The notes beneath the pieces are model-generated. The model was not told the DNA's origin and ran no database searches. It saw only the letters and a program-made list of their open reading frames with translations. From Prevotella sp. (GTDB lineage Bacteria > Bacteroidota > Bacteroidia > Bacteroidales > Bacteroidaceae), in the NCBI GenBank assembly GCA_016285075.1, contig JAEEQB010000013.1:24142-88141 (forward strand): a stretch of DNA of 64,000 bases, written 5' to 3'. The translations under genes were made by a program, and so were the position numbers. Shown one piece after another: positions 9,073 to 17,024 of the stretch. Each line of letters opens with the position of its first letter. Position 1 is the first letter of the stretch.

Positions 9073-11553
9073 ATGAAGAGAATCTTTACACTTTGTATGG
9101 CCCTGCTGCTGACAGCTGTCGGCACATGGGCACAGAACGATCCCAAACGGATTGAGCTTTCGACTGAGGAGCAGCAGCTGGTGCAGCAGAACAACGACTT
9201 CGCCTTCCGCCTGTTCCGAAAGACACGTTCGTCTGAAAGCCAGTTGCTGTCGCCACTAAGCATCACCTATGCACTGGGCATGCTGAACAACGGTGCACAG
9301 GGGCAGACCCGGAAAGAAATCAACGAGGTGCTTGGATTCGGCGAAGCCGGGACTGACGCCATCAACCGTTTCTGCGGCAGGATGCTCAAGGAGAGCGCCG
9401 GGCTGGACAAGGAGACGAAGGTAAGCATTGCCAACACCGTCTACGTGAACAAGTCTGCCGGAGTCCACCTGAAGAGGCCTTTCGTGGAGCAAGCGGCTGC
9501 ATACTATGATGCCACGCCCGAGGAACGGGACTTCTACGACGGAAAGACACTCGACGTGATCAACCAATGGGGTAGCGACCACACCGAGGGCATGATTGAG
9601 CAGGTGCTGACACCAGAGGAGTTCGACCCCTCCTGCATCACCTACCTGCTAAATGCTCTCTACTTCAAAGGCATGTGGCAGCAGAAGTTCGAGAAGGGTA
9701 TGACCATGCCGATGTACTTCAACGATGATGAGAACACGATATGTGATTTCATGATGACAGCAGGCCAGTTCCGCTTCTTCCAGAACAGTACCTACAAGAG
9801 CATCATACTGCCTTATGGCAACGGTGCCTATCAGATGACGGTGTTCCTGCCCGTTGGCAACAAGAAGCTGGACGATGTACTCAACGAACTGAACGGGAAG
9901 AACTGGAATGCCGATGCCTACGAGTATTACAATGTTGACCTGGGATTCCCACGTTTCGAGACCGAGACCAGCATTCATCTGGAAGAGGTGATGGCCGGGA
10001 TGGGCATGCCCAATGCCTTTACGGGTGAGGGCTTCAACGAGCTGTGCTATGCCGGCGACGACGAGTCACAGAGCTGCAACGTGTTGATTGGCCTGATGAA
10101 GCAGGTGGCTAAGATCAAACTGGACGAGGAAGGCACAGAGGCTGCCGCCGTGACGGTGATAGGCACCAAGAACGGCGCGACAAAGTACACGCAGTTCGTT
10201 GCCAACCGGCCGTTCCTCTACGTCATCAGCGAGCAGTCCACGGGTGCCATCTTCTTCATGGGACAGTACATGGGTGAAAAGATAGACAACCCACGCGGCT
10301 CCATCAGCCTCACAAAGCAGGAGAAAGAACTGGTGATGCAGAACAATGACTTTGCCTTCAACCTGTTCCGCCAGGCACGGACGGGCAACAATCAGATGCT
10401 CTCACCGCTGAGCATCACCTATGCACTGGGCATGCTGAACAACGGTGCCACCGGCCAGACACAAGAGGAGATCAGCAAGGCACTGGGATTCGGCGAAGCC
10501 GGAGCCATCAACCAGTTCTGCCGCAAGATGCTGAGCGAGGCACCGAAGCTTGACAAGAAGACCACGGTGGGCATAGCCAACACCATCTATGTGAACGAGG
10601 CAAAGGGCTACAAGCTGAAACCTGCCTTTGTAGAGACCGCACAGCAGTACTATGATGCCACGCCCGAGGCTCGTGACTTTAATGACGGACTGACTCTCGA
10701 TGTGATTAACCAATGGGGCAATGATCACACCAACGGAATGATTCCGAAGATACTCACCCAAGATGAATTCGACACCACAGCGGTGAGCTACCTGCTGAAT
10801 GCCCTCTACTTCAAGGGTGCATGGGTGCTCAAGTTCAATAAAGATAGAACAAAAGAGGAGAAATTCAATAACAACGAGACCGTTCCGATGATGCATACTG
10901 GAGGCGAACTGCTGTATACGGAAAACGACACCTACCAGGCTGTACAACTGCCCTACGGCAACATGGCCTACAAGATGACCGTCTACCTGCCACGGGAAGA
11001 CAAGACAGTGGACGACCTGCTGGAAAAACTGGACAGCAAGAGCTGGGCGGCTGGCTTCTCAGATTATTTGGTTACCCTGGCGCTGCCCCGCTTCGAGACC
11101 AATACCAGCCAAAACCTGGTACCTGTGATGAAGGCACTGGGTGTGAACAGGGCGTTCAACCCTGACGAGGCAGAGTTCTCCGATTTCTGCGACGTGCCTA
11201 CATTTATCGACCTGATGAAGCAGGTGTCGAAGATCAAGGTGGACGAAGAAGGTACCGAGGCTGCTGCAGTCACCGTTATTGGTAATGTAGCAACTGGCAT
11301 GCCACGCGAGGCACAGTTCATTGCCAACCGTCCCTTCCTATATATCATCAGTGAGCAGTCCACAGGTGTCATCTTCTTCATTGGCCAGTATCTGGGACAG
11401 TACAGCGAAGCACGAGAGACGGTGGGAATCCTTCCAACTTACTCATCACAGAATCGTCCTTCCTCTCAGATCTACAACCTGAAGGGCCAGCGTCTGGCTG
11501 AGCCACCTGCCAAGGGTCTGTATATACAGGACGGGAAACTGAAGCAGAAATAG
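9073..11553 (+). CDS. Tandem (two-domain) serpin
   Basis: Two full serpin units, each with the hinge DEEGTEAAAVTVIG and FxANRPFLYxISEQSTGxIFFxGQY; signal peptide; C-terminal YNLKGQRL...KGLYIQDGK tail. Confidence 0.93.
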   Translation: MKRIFTLCMALLLTAVGTWAQNDPKRIELSTEEQQLVQQNNDFAFRLFRKTRSSESQLLSPLSITYALGMLNNGAQGQTRKEINEVLGFGEAGTDAINRFCGRMLKESAGLDKETKVSIANTVYVNKSAGVHLKRPFVEQAAAYYDATPEERDFYDGKTLDVINQWGSDHTEGMIEQVLTPEEFDPSCITYLLNALYFKGMWQQKFEKGMTMPMYFNDDENTICDFMMTAGQFRFFQNSTYKSIILPYGNGAYQMTVFLPVGNKKLDDVLNELNGKNWNADAYEYYNVDLGFPRFETETSIHLEEVMAGMGMPNAFTGEGFNELCYAGDDESQSCNVLIGLMKQVAKIKLDEEGTEAAAVTVIGTKNGATKYTQFVANRPFLYVISEQSTGAIFFMGQYMGEKIDNPRGSISLTKQEKELVMQNNDFAFNLFRQARTGNNQMLSPLSITYALGMLNNGATGQTQEEISKALGFGEAGAINQFCRKMLSEAPKLDKKTTVGIANTIYVNEAKGYKLKPAFVETAQQYYDATPEARDFNDGLTLDVINQWGNDHTNGMIPKILTQDEFDTTAVSYLLNALYFKGAWVLKFNKDRTKEEKFNNNETVPMMHTGGELLYTENDTYQAVQLPYGNMAYKMTVYLPREDKTVDDLLEKLDSKSWAAGFSDYLVTLALPRFETNTSQNLVPVMKALGVNRAFNPDEAEFSDFCDVPTFIDLMKQVSKIKVDEEGTEAAAVTVIGNVATGMPREAQFIANRPFLYIISEQSTGVIFFIGQYLGQYSEARETVGILPTYSSQNRPSSQIYNLKGQRLAEPPAKGLYIQDGKLKQK

Positions 11554-12855: not shown

Positions 12856-14514
12856 CTATTTCCCTGAATCTTTCCTTCGGATTTCCACGCGGCGTATCTT
12901 TCCGCTGATGGTCTTGGGCAGTTCGTCTACAAATTCCACGATGCGTGGGTACTTGTAGGGTGCTGTTTCGCGTTTGACGTGCTGCTGGAGCTCCTTAACA
13001 AGGTCGTCGCCAGCTTTGTCCTTCCATTCCTTTCCCAACACGACGGTGGCCTTGACCACCATGCCGCGGATATCGTCGGGAACGCCGGTGATGGCGCACT
13101 CCACCACAGCCGGATGGGTCATAAGGGCACTCTCTACCTCGAACGGGCCGATGCGGTAGCCCGACGATTTGATGACATCATCGATACGCCCTTCGAACCA
13201 GTAGTATCCATCCTCATCACGCCAGGCCATGTCACCCGTGTGATAAAGACCATCGTGCCAGGCCTCACGTGTCAACTCCGGGTCACGGTAATACTGCTTG
13301 AACAGACCGATGGGTTTGCTGTCGCCCACACGCACCACAATCTCGCCTTTCTCACCATCCTCGCACGAAGTGCCATCGGCACGGATGAGATCGATGTCGT
13401 ATTGGGCGTTGGGAATACCCATGGAACCTGGCTTGGGGGTCATCCAAGGGAAGGTGCCGAGAGTCATGGTGGTCTCGGTCTGTCCGAATCCTTCCATCAT
13501 GCGAATGCCTGTCTTCTCATAGAACTTCTCGTAGACTGCTGGGTTGAGGGCCTCGCCTGCAGTACAGCAGTATTCGAGCGAAGAGAGGTCGTAGCGAGAC
13601 AGGTCTTCTCGGATCATGAAACGATAGATGGTAGGCGGTGCACAGAACGAGGTGACATGGTATTTCTCCATCTGACGCAACAGGGTATCGGCGTTGAACT
13701 TCTCGTGGTCGAACACGAATACCGTTGCTCCGGCAAACCACTGGCCGTAGAACTTTCCCCAGACGGCCTTGCCCCAGCCCGTATCGGCCACGGTGAGATG
13801 GAGCGAGCCTTTATGCAGGTTGTGCCAGAAAACGCCTGTGGTGAGGTGTCCCATGGCATAGAGGTAGTCGTGAGCCACCATTTTGGGCTCGCCACTGGTG
13901 CCACTGGTAAAATACATCAGCATCGTGTCGTCGTTTTCGTTGACGAAAGCAGGACGCACAAACTGAGGTGCCTGGTCTATCTCGTTCAAATAGTCATGGA
14001 AGCCCTCGGGAATGTCATTTCCTATTGCAATGTACTGGGTGACAGTAGGGCTCTCTGCCTTTGCCAACTGGATCTGCCCGGTCACATAGGGATCGTCTAC
14101 GCAGATGATAGCCTTGACCGAGGCACGGGTGTTGCGATAGACGATGTCGTGCTTGGTGAGCATGTGGGTGGCGGGAATGACGATGGCTCCGATCTTGCAG
14201 AGGGCGAGCATGACGACCCACCATTCATAGCGTCGCTTCAGGATCAGCATCACGGGGTCGTTCTTGCCGATGCCAAGTGTCTGCAGATAGGAAGCAGCCT
14301 GGTCGGTCTGTTCCTTCAGCTGGGCAAAAGTGGTACGTATCTCTTCCCCTTGGTCGTTGGTCCACAGAATGGCCAGCCGATGAGGGTCTTCCTCTGCCCA
14401 GGCATCCATCACGTCATAGGCAAAGTTGAAGTTCTCGGGTATGATGAACTCCAGGTTCTTGTTGTAGTCCTCTACAGACTCGAAATGGGTCTGCTTTAAA
14501 AATCTTTCTACCAT
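12856..14514 (-). CDS. AMP-binding acyl-CoA synthetase
   Basis: MLMYFTSGTSGEPKMVAHDY, GFGQTETT, YHTGDMAWRDEDGYYWFEGRIDDVIKSSGYRIGPFEVES, PKTISGKIRRVEIR. Confidence 0.92.
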   Translation of the reverse strand: MVERFLKQTHFESVEDYNKNLEFIIPENFNFAYDVMDAWAEEDPHRLAILWTNDQGEEIRTTFAQLKEQTDQAASYLQTLGIGKNDPVMLILKRRYEWWVVMLALCKIGAIVIPATHMLTKHDIVYRNTRASVKAIICVDDPYVTGQIQLAKAESPTVTQYIAIGNDIPEGFHDYLNEIDQAPQFVRPAFVNENDDTMLMYFTSGTSGEPKMVAHDYLYAMGHLTTGVFWHNLHKGSLHLTVADTGWGKAVWGKFYGQWFAGATVFVFDHEKFNADTLLRQMEKYHVTSFCAPPTIYRFMIREDLSRYDLSSLEYCCTAGEALNPAVYEKFYEKTGIRMMEGFGQTETTMTLGTFPWMTPKPGSMGIPNAQYDIDLIRADGTSCEDGEKGEIVVRVGDSKPIGLFKQYYRDPELTREAWHDGLYHTGDMAWRDEDGYYWFEGRIDDVIKSSGYRIGPFEVESALMTHPAVVECAITGVPDDIRGMVVKATVVLGKEWKDKAGDDLVKELQQHVKRETAPYKYPRIVEFVDELPKTISGKIRRVEIRRKDSGK

Positions 14515-14525
14515 ATGAGTAAAGT

Positions 14526-14665
14526 AAAAGTGATAAGTGAATAGTGAAAAATTTGCTTCCGCACTTCTTGCTATTCATCCTTTCTTCTTTATCTTGTTAA
14601 ACTATATTTATTCTCGCACAGGAACAGCGGTAGCAAATTATTCACTTTTCACTATTCACTTTTCC
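14526..14665. repeat. Short ORF-less inverted-repeat element
   Basis: Arms 14526-14562 (AAAAGTGATAAGTGAATAGTGAAAAATTTGCTTCCGC) and 14627-14665 (GCGGTAGCAAATTATTCACTTTTCACTATTCACTTTTCC) are near reverse complements. Confidence 0.85.
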
Positions 14666-14671
14666 CTAATA

Positions 14672-15229
14672 TTATTCAACGGTGAAGGCAAGGAACCTGA
14701 CGGCCTTCTCGCCCACAGCCAGCATGCCGTGGGGCTTGGTGGAGTCGAAATAGATGCTGTCACCCTCTTCAAGCACGATGGTCTTTCCACCGATGTAGAG
14801 TTCCATCTTACCCTCAAGCACCAGGTTGAACTCCTGGCCAGGGTGTGAGTTCTTGTAGATGGTGCGTGCGCCCGGCTTGGGTTCCACGGTGACAATGAAC
14901 ACGTCGGCCTTGTGACCCACAAAACCGCCCACTAGGCTCTGATACTTGTAAGCCTTGGTGCGCTCAATGGACATGCCTTGTCCCTTGCGAGTGACGTAGT
15001 ACGACTTCATGTGGGGCGACTCCGCAAAGATGATCTCCTCGGTAGACACTCCATACTTATGGGCAATCTTCATCAGGTTCGAGATGGTGATGTCGAGTTC
15101 GCCACGCTCTATTTTCTCATATTTCTCCGCATCGATGCCGATGGTCTCTGCCATCTCACTCACGGGGATATCGAGCACGTCGCGCAGTCCGCGCAACCGT
15201 TCACCTATTTGCTTTAATTGTTCGTCCAT
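14672..15229 (-). CDS. XRE-family regulator with C-terminal cupin domain
   Basis: N-terminal HTH (LRGLRDVLDIPVSEMAETIGIDAEKYEKIERGELDITISNLMKIAHKYGV), cupin (PGQEFNLVLEGKMELYIGGKTIVLEEGDSIYFDSTKPHGM). Confidence 0.9.
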   Translation of the reverse strand: MDEQLKQIGERLRGLRDVLDIPVSEMAETIGIDAEKYEKIERGELDITISNLMKIAHKYGVSTEEIIFAESPHMKSYYVTRKGQGMSIERTKAYKYQSLVGGFVGHKADVFIVTVEPKPGARTIYKNSHPGQEFNLVLEGKMELYIGGKTIVLEEGDSIYFDSTKPHGMLAVGEKAVRFLAFTVE

Positions 15230-15246
15230 AATCTTTTTTTAAAGGT

Positions 15247-15712
15247 AAAAGTGAATAGTGAATAGTGAAAAATTTGCTTCCGCCGTCCCTGTTCACTTCT
15301 TTTCATTGTTCTGTTTTGTTGTTTTTATTGATGATATCAGGAGTGCAAGCAGTTCTTGACAGTCTTTGCTCAAACTCTCGAATTCTTGTTCATTCAGATA
15401 TTCAGTATCCCGAAGGATATTAAGCCAATAGTTGGTCTCATTGCATTCTTTCAAGGCAACCGACAATTTGTTGATGAAATCTGCCGGGCTTTGTGCGTAT
15501 GTCGCCTCACTCACCAGTGCACCAATGGCTGTCCCTGACCGGAAAACCTGATTAATCATCCCGTATTCCTTCGGACTGCACGTCATGGACTTTACCATTT
15601 TTACAATCCTTATTCCGAAAAGATAGCTTTTCTTTGTAAGGGGGGAGCTGTTATACTGGAGGTATGACATAGCGCGGTAGCAAATTATTCACTTTTCACT
15701 ATTCACTTTTCC
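15247..15712. mobile_element. Inverted-repeat-bounded cassette carrying a four-helix-bundle gene (putative)
   Basis: Arms 15247-15283 and 15674-15712, same sequences as the 14526-14665 element, enclosing almost exactly one ORF. Confidence 0.6.
15293..15670 (-). CDS. Four-helix-bundle protein (23S rRNA intervening-sequence protein / Avd-like)
   Basis: 125 aa helical protein: SYLFGIRIVKMVKSM...GMINQVFRSGTAIGALVSEATYAQSPADFINKLSVALKECNETNYWLNIL, matching the TIGR02436-type pattern as recalled. Confidence 0.8.
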   Translation of the reverse strand: MSYLQYNSSPLTKKSYLFGIRIVKMVKSMTCSPKEYGMINQVFRSGTAIGALVSEATYAQSPADFINKLSVALKECNETNYWLNILRDTEYLNEQEFESLSKDCQELLALLISSIKTTKQNNEKK

Positions 15713-15713
15713 C

Positions 15714-16997
15714 TTATATCTTGTCCAATGCTTGCTTGATGTCTTCGAGGATATCCTCCACGTCTTCTATGCCTACGGAAAGGCGGATGAGGTCGGGAGC
15801 CACACCAGCCTCGCGCAACTGCTCGTCGGAGAGCTGACGATGGGTATGGCTGGCAGGATGAAGCACACAGGTGCGGGCATCAGCCACATGAGTCACAATG
15901 TTGATCATCTCCAACGAGTCCATCCACTTGATAGCTGTCTCACGGGTTCCCTTCAGGCCGAAGGCAATCACGCCGCATGAGCCGTTGGGCAGATATTTCC
16001 GCCCCAGGTCATAGCACCTGTCGCTGGGCAGTCCGCAGTAGTGTACCCACGCCACTTTCTCGTTCTGGCTCAGGAACTCGGCCACCTGCTGGGCATTCTT
16101 GCAATGCTGCGCCATACGCAGGTGAAGCGTCTGCAGACCAAGGTTCAGCAGGAAAGAGTTCTGGGGAGCGGGTATGGAGCCGAGGTCGCGCATCAGTTGG
16201 GCGACGAGCTTCGTGCAATAGCCTTTCTTGCCGAAGGCTTTCACATAGGTCAGTCCATGGTAAGACTCATCAGGAGTGGTGAGACCGGGGAACTTCTCGG
16301 CATGTGCAAGCCAGTCAAAGTTGCCACTGTCTACTACGCAGCCACCCACCTGAGTAGCCAAACCGTCCATGTACTTCGTGGTGGAATGGGTCACGATGTC
16401 AGCTCCCCACTCAAACGGGCGGCAGTTGATAGGTGTTGCAAAGGTATTGTCGACGATCAGGGGAACCCCATTCCTATGGGCTATGCGGGCAAACTTCTCT
16501 ATGTCCAACACAGCGCAGCCGGGGTTGGAGATGGTCTCGCCGAAGAGAGCCTTCGTATTGGGACGGAAAGCTGCCTGTATCTCCTCCTCGGATGCATCTT
16601 GCGAGATGAAAGTACTCTCAATGCCAAGTTTCTTCAGGGTGACACCAAACAGATTGTAGGTACCGCCATAGATCTCATTGGAGGTGACGAAGTGGTCACC
16701 ACTCTCACAGATATTGAAAATGGCATAGAAATTGGCAGCCTGGCCCGAGGACGTCAGCACAGCCCCTACTCCGCCCTCGAGGGCAGCAATCTTCTCTGCC
16801 ACAGCATCGTTTGTGGGGTTCTGCAGGCGGGTATAGAAATAGCCCTCCTTCTCCAAGTCAAACAACTTTGCCATCTCGTCCGAGTCATCATACTTGAAGG
16901 TAGTCGACTGGATAATCGGCAACTCTATCGGTTCTCCGTTTTTGGCCTTATAGCCTGCCTGTACGCAGAGCGAGCCCTGCTTTAGTCTCTTTTCCAT
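15714..16997 (-). CDS. O-acetylhomoserine aminocarboxypropyltransferase (Cys/Met metabolism PLP enzyme)
   Basis: MEKRLKQGSLCVQAGYKAKNGEPIELPIIQSTTF, YTRLQNPTNDAVAEKIAALEGG, VTHSTTKYMDGLATQVGG; start trimmed to 16997. Confidence 0.88.
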   Translation of the reverse strand: MEKRLKQGSLCVQAGYKAKNGEPIELPIIQSTTFKYDDSDEMAKLFDLEKEGYFYTRLQNPTNDAVAEKIAALEGGVGAVLTSSGQAANFYAIFNICESGDHFVTSNEIYGGTYNLFGVTLKKLGIESTFISQDASEEEIQAAFRPNTKALFGETISNPGCAVLDIEKFARIAHRNGVPLIVDNTFATPINCRPFEWGADIVTHSTTKYMDGLATQVGGCVVDSGNFDWLAHAEKFPGLTTPDESYHGLTYVKAFGKKGYCTKLVAQLMRDLGSIPAPQNSFLLNLGLQTLHLRMAQHCKNAQQVAEFLSQNEKVAWVHYCGLPSDRCYDLGRKYLPNGSCGVIAFGLKGTRETAIKWMDSLEMINIVTHVADARTCVLHPASHTHRQLSDEQLREAGVAPDLIRLSVGIEDVEDILEDIKQALDKI

Positions 16998-17024
16998 GTA
17001 TTGTCGTTTTTTGCAATTTGGGTG

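Follow-up and report, generated by a model that had tools for sequence, protein, structure and literature searches.

Organization of the locus

The window, the whole 64,000-nucleotide stretch of Prevotella sp. DNA that was analysed, contains a short element with inverted ends lying between two protein genes. The features of this region are listed below, with positions numbered from the first nucleotide of the window.

15714 to 17012, minus strand: upstream host gene, O-acetylhomoserine sulfhydrylase-like (metY); the element begins at its stop codon
15674 to 15715, minus strand: 5′ arm as read along the IVP gene, AAGGGAAAAGTGAATAGTGAAAAGTGAATAATTTGCTACCGC, with tandem 7-mers and a cap
15293 to 15670, minus strand: IVP/four helix bundle protein gene, 125 aa, PF05635 and TIGR02436
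15242 to 15283, minus strand: 3′ arm, inverted copy, GCGGAAGCAAATTTTTCACTATTCACTATTCACTTTTACCTT
14672 to 15229, minus strand: downstream host gene for an HTH + cupin regulator, its start codon lying 12 nt past the element
14526 to 14666, minus strand: miniature, gene-less copy; arm pair of the window element (14526-14562, 14627-14666) around a 64-nt spacer

The arms had been described in the original prediction as near reverse complements, which was confirmed (90% complementary), and their extent was revised to a slightly longer one: 42 nt each, at 15242-15283 and 15674-15715, separated by 390 nt. The full element thus defined is 474 nt long (15242-15715). Placement of the end of the right arm 1 nt before the stop codon of the next gene is consistent for the shorter arm; the extended arm overlaps this codon and covers the first two bases of the metY stop (15714-15716, plus-strand coordinates). 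As also predicted, the space between the arms is filled by a 125-aa ORF of the 23S IVP/Avd-like family, found here to be encoded, like both neighbouring genes, on the minus strand. It matched PF05635 at 6.4e-25 (87.9 bits; curated cut-off 33.8) and TIGR02436 at 1.5e-28 (99.2 bits; curated cut-off 24), the families of the "23S rRNA intervening-sequence protein" (IVP, S23). This gene is the sole ORF filling the element, no transposase or recombinase was found within it, and no reverse transcriptase gene lies beside it, both neighbours being metabolic or regulatory.

The layout of a 23S intervening sequence had been recognized in the original prediction, yet the element sits between protein genes, metY and the HTH + cupin gene, and no rRNA family match was obtained from Rfam in 14450-15800. 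The only Rfam match in this interval was sub-threshold and microRNA-like, and was taken as chance. Folding of the RNA from 15230 to 15730 gave -140.6 kcal/mol (z = -5.6, equalled by 0 of 100 shuffles), in agreement with a transcript predicted to fold as a long stem around the ORF. Read in the sense of the gene, the arms are built from tandem 7-mers, AGTGAAT/AGTGAAA, followed by a cap (TTTGCTACCGC / GCGGAAGCAAA). The window contains 10 occurrences of a 14-nt arm motif, for which 0.04 would be expected, and each of them falls either in the two arms of the element or in the arm pair at 14526-14666. This second pair, absent from the original prediction and located between the cupin/HTH gene and an acyl-CoA synthetase-like gene, one gene away from the window element, is the first sign of a dispersed element. 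Elsewhere in the window, on the plus strand, an 826-aa ORF (9073-11553) reads as two fused serpin-like domains.

Three PF05635 genes are present in the assembly from which the window was taken, all bounded by inverted short tandem repeats and each with a different unit: AGTGAAT in the window, a ATTGAGAAAATGAGA-type unit on contig C91 and the telomere-like TTAGGGTGA on contig C44. Arm-only and miniature copies are found elsewhere in this genome, for example as a short palindrome on contig C16. Two similar caspase-like genes, on contigs C7 and C89, contain in frame an arm-like block (GCGGCAGCAAATTCTTCACTCTTCACTCTTCACTCTTCACT), which reads as extra amino acids.

Repeat arms on IVP genes

Arms were scored by aligning the 200-nt upstream flank of each gene with the reverse complement of its downstream flank, at a threshold of at least 15, in genomes sampled by regions. 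PF05635 genes were present in 52 of 60 same-genus genomes (0-15 in each), and the threshold was reached by 90.5% of the genus IVP genes (n=95), compared with 3.8% of mismatched pairs and 4.3% of control genes. The corresponding values for IVP loci in named genomes from many phyla were 89.7% (n=78), 14.9% and 3.0%. Since the named set was gathered with patterns of one IVP subfamily (a four-sequence alignment), its percentage applies to that subfamily, and the 14.9% of mismatched pairs arose because related arms recur in the set. Scores of at least 15 were also obtained for 82% of plasmid IVP loci (n=11) and for 43% of the best 30 phylum-wide matches, the latter against 1.6% of mismatched pairs. 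Inverted arms were found on 29 of 38 IVP ORFs in Nostocales and two other genomes, and on 20 of 29 in Gammaproteobacteria. None of the gammaproteobacterial IVP loci was located in rRNA and several were near tRNA genes; four of these elements (L493, L511, L517 and L520) adjoin a tRNA gene.

The arms are real, as originally proposed, but they are not one fixed sequence, consisting instead of short tandem repeats whose unit differs by IVP subtype. By our own criterion the repeat period was 7 (or 14) in 58 of 70 cases in the named set, and periods of 7 and 8 were both common in the genus. Units read directly from plasmids included TTAGTGA (Bernardetia), CTCTCCG (Treponema), ATTCAAA, AATTCGC and AGTCGGA (Nostoc), AATTCGT (Dolichospermum) and CACTGGT (Euhalothece), with a further example in Monoglobus. 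At three loci (L077, L100 and L068) the tandem repeats on the two sides are in direct, not inverted, orientation. A single 49.6-kb contig of one genome (C42 of G040) carries four IVP genes, and four plasmid IVP genes (L171, L178, L179 and L173) lie within restriction-modification or defence-like operons (hsdS-hsdR, drmD-pglX, helicase-methylase). Two IVP elements of the verrucomicrobial genome G400 (L353 and L363), which differ in arm unit, occupy apparently one atp operon: one lies before atpG and the other, with TAACTGA arms, between atpD and atpC.

An intact gene between same-strand host genes might be an ordinary host gene with terminator hairpins, or the arrangement might be due to chance. 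The probability of this is practically nil, the explanation being refuted by the arm statistics relative to controls, the shuffle fold test, the recurrence across phyla and the copies of the element at many sites.

Between elements in different contexts, arm similarity rose with IVP identity, from 0.13 for random pairs to 0.34 at 70-80% identity and 0.49 above 80%. At orthologous sites the arms within an element were more similar to each other (0.67) than to the arms of the orthologue (0.29), and 88 of 123 pairs behaved in this way for both elements; the contrast is partly built in because the elements were pre-selected for having arms. Five IVP-rich genomes contained 7, 13, 7, 6 and 5 or fewer repeat tracts per 80 kb (37 in all), and five IVP-free genomes, a small sample, contained 3, 0, 0, 2 and 2. 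Taken together these comparisons, made at the level of sequence, show that the arms are part of the element and that arms and gene travel together.

Copies, empty sites and target sites

A search of arms plus ORF across relatives, as originally suggested, located the same element at about ten sites. In 399 genus genomes the 474-nt element had 20 relatives besides the window copy, most of them full-length and 73-85% identical. These lie mostly at about nine other sites, between operon genes where readable, including cupin-ligase, proC-cupin, nusA-infB, mlaE-mlaF, dxr-rseP, upstream of argC and upstream of lutA, among others (gene names are our reading of terminal protein sequences). Matches to the element, many of them arm-only, were present in 243 of the 399 genomes; no plasmid relative of the exact window element was found. 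Window-family arm copies also occur at L455-L459 on contigs classed as viral, the last being a tiny palindrome with a loop of ~11 nt.

Empty sites in relatives had been proposed as a check, and they were found at three loci: the miniature junction, frdA-frdB and Nostoc flagelliforme. Most of 29 relatives have a compact, empty junction at the place of the window miniature. This junction is occupied in L135 by another miniature, with a second copy across the same gene, in L462 and L463 by a full-length element, and in some other relatives by repeats of other units. In most genomes frdA and frdB are separated by 1-21 nt; in about ten the gap is 450-590 nt long and contains an IVP gene, with at least five different arm units among the filled gaps. 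Nostoc flagelliforme has four paralogous plasmid loci at which the flanks are mostly 80-98% identical but the arms and IVP gene are 100% identical over about 500 nt. The element there has sharp edges and interrupts a helix-turn-helix-like gene, an uninterrupted paralogue of which, on a plasmid of the same strain, represents the empty site (...TTTGGAGTTGGGTAAAAAAGG...). This site had no repeats before insertion, and TGGAGTTGGGT is found on both sides of the insert as an 11-bp target duplication. Miniatures of about 140-180 bp, bounded by the arms of the IVP element, are also found on these N. flagelliforme plasmids. Miniatures at L226 and L227 lie within two similar genes whose ends are AlkB-like, which suggests insertion with loss of coding sequence. 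The identical IVP copies of G416 are uninformative on boundaries, since the duplication that contains them extends beyond the 4.3 kb examined.

Target duplications had likewise been proposed for comparison, and here the outcome was negative: across 178 elements flanking direct repeats were no commoner than chance, so that target duplication is not a general rule. The original prediction had further specified a pattern that would speak against it, namely the same gene at the same locus everywhere, no empty sites, and IVP genes elsewhere lacking arms. The opposite was observed, with empty sites, the same element at many sites, and inverted arms on about 90% of IVP genes in the genus and in the named set.

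It could be argued that heptamer arrays arise by slippage and that IVP genes recombine into them, the arms not being the element's own. Slippage can expand repeats, and heptamer arrays lacking IVP genes exist. Such a repeat hot-spot is contradicted, however, at the Nostoc empty site, which was repeat-free before insertion, and it fits poorly with an arm unit that tracks IVP subtype and an inverted geometry that recurs on most genes; we consider it highly improbable. Mobility of the element is, by these sequence criteria, well supported, and 15242-15715 very likely represents one copy of a mobile "IVP element" composed of a tandem 7-nt repeat arm with its cap, an IVP ORF and the inverted arm.

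Selection, orientation and proposed mechanism

Strong purifying selection acts on the IVP ORF, with a median dN/dS of 0.049 (35 pairs, with dS near saturation); 13 ORFs were recovered for this set and 8 were not recovered by the motif filter. Stem conservation was read from an alignment of mixed orientations, which was used for the palindromic stem only. The upstream neighbour was co-directional in 92 of 94 cases in the genus and 71 of 75 in the named set, compared with a 74% baseline; the element is therefore normally transcribed in the sense direction, together with the operon that contains it. Sense orientation a short distance behind the upstream gene is found for most copies, a bias that could also reflect selection after insertion.

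An operon-internal, sense position and a strongly conserved protein and stem are what a host-beneficial module would display, with stem and IVP together forming an autoregulated mRNA-processing unit that is fixed at each site and not selfish. We regard this as improbable, given the patchy presence at each site, the same element in unrelated operons, the interrupted gene in Nostoc and the existence of gene-less copies. The element is probably a selfish one that is borne on transcripts. Of the original suggestion of a mobile or RNA-level selfish element with no transposase, mobility and the lack of a transposase held, while the RNA level is what we infer.

The structure predicted for the IVP (pLDDT 92) matched 2RLD, 2GSC and the protein Avd of diversity-generating retroelements (DGRs; 4DWL and 8UB7/8UBE). 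The Avd matches, with TM values of 0.70-0.74, include Avd in DGR ribonucleoprotein entries. Avd is essential for retrohoming (PMC10053308), and in Xanthomonas the S23 protein forms a homopentameric ring (PMC4990558). We favour a mechanism in which read-through transcription of the operon would produce an RNA whose roughly 37-bp stem displays the repeats. The translated IVP, as an Avd-like pentameric barrel, would bind the array of repeats on the transcript that encodes it, and RNase III-type processing in the stem would render the insertion harmless to the operon. The element would then be copied to a new place by means of the IVP-RNA complex and a trans-acting reverse transcriptase or polymerase, which would also allow gene-less miniatures to spread. 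An IVP element inserted into rRNA would be seen as a 23S intervening sequence. That read-through stem, IVP-repeat binding, RNase III-type processing and mobility by a trans-acting enzyme all hold jointly has, in our estimation, slightly less than an even chance.

Transposition might instead take place at the DNA level, through single-stranded DNA or hairpins during replication or repair as for IS200/IS605 or REP sequences, with the IVP as an ssDNA-binding helper, or by means of an unlinked transposase. Elements that move in this way typically have palindromic ends and gene-less miniatures, and one insertion has an 11-bp target duplication. Ends that vary with IVP subtype would be unexpected under a shared unlinked transposase, however, and the strong sense bias and the lack of a general target duplication also argue against this route, which we judge unlikely.

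If the IVP proves to be a mobility factor, the elements would constitute a new class. On the mobile-element reading PF05635 (S23/IVP), so far a family without an assigned function, would gain a role as a mobile-element protein, and the long-puzzling 23S rRNA intervening sequences would become a special case. A single small protein and a single 40-nt repeat, as RNA or DNA, make these questions testable. The element lies within operons whose genes are essential or central (atp, nusA-infB, frdAB) and is apparently tolerated there, which calls for explanation.

Comparison with known systems

The anatomy of the element is that of the 23S intervening sequences (IVS) of Coxiella, Leptospira and others, in which a PF05635 ORF also occupies the loop of a terminal-inverted-repeat stem and whose distribution is likewise patchy. 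The Coxiella IVS has 28-bp terminal inverted repeats, carries the heptamer GACAGAT three times in tandem ahead of the S23p ORF, and is cleaved by RNase III at the first repeat; the authors of that study considered function and origin unclear and cited an earlier suggestion that the ORF assists mobility (PMC4990558). Tandem heptamers thus stand beside the ORF both in Coxiella and in the window arms. IVP elements differ in lying between protein genes, at many sites and in large numbers, and in having gene-less miniatures; their arms are themselves heptamer arrays. The only publication found to combine IVP with inverted or heptamer repeats was the Coxiella paper, with its heptamers within the IVS, and none was found that links dispersed repeats to IVP genes. 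An element class outside rRNA, with repeat arms, miniatures and spread, appears to be undescribed in the open-access papers searched.

Cyanobacterial STRRs are dispersed repeats of the heptamer type. TAACTGA is a dispersed tandem heptamer repeat of unknown origin (PMC4679880), and GGGAATC and GGGGA(C/T)T are further dispersed heptamers, the former occurring as 70 inverted pairs in Xanthomonas (PMC4692102). X. campestris encodes an IVP, Xcc0516. TAACTGA arms were found on an IVP gene between atpD and atpC in a verrucomicrobial genome (L254), and TAACTGA-like arms on two Nostocales IVP genes. Like these heptamers, IVP arms are tandem, dispersed 7-nt units and intergenic; the known repeats are mostly intergenic as well, and GGGAATC is often in inverted pairs. 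Dispersed heptamers differ in having been described with no linked gene or mobility mechanism.

With Avd of DGRs the IVP shares a four-helix-bundle fold, in its case predicted, and the character of a small accessory protein, but no reverse transcriptase gene lies beside the window IVP gene. Short palindromic gene-less copies that seemingly depend on a trans factor recall MITEs and REP/REPIN sequences with RAYT. The copy at 14526-14666 is gene-less, shares its termini with a longer coding element and is dispersed, as MITEs are, and a target-site duplication of constant length was not found among the 178 IVP elements (one 11-bp case). The candidate partner here is a four-helix bundle and not a transposase, and the ends are variable heptamer arrays. 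The IVP element is apparently the source of many dispersed bacterial heptamer repeats, and 23S rRNA intervening sequences look like its special case inserted in rRNA. We tentatively suggest, as a possibility somewhat short of evenly balanced, a new class of elements, spread over many bacterial phyla, in which an Avd-like pentameric IVP, the sole protein encoded, would read a cognate, fast-evolving 7-nt RNA array and achieve retro-mobility with a borrowed cellular reverse transcriptase or polymerase, and from which dispersed heptamers (TAACTGA, GGGAATC, STRRs) and the 23S IVS would both originate.
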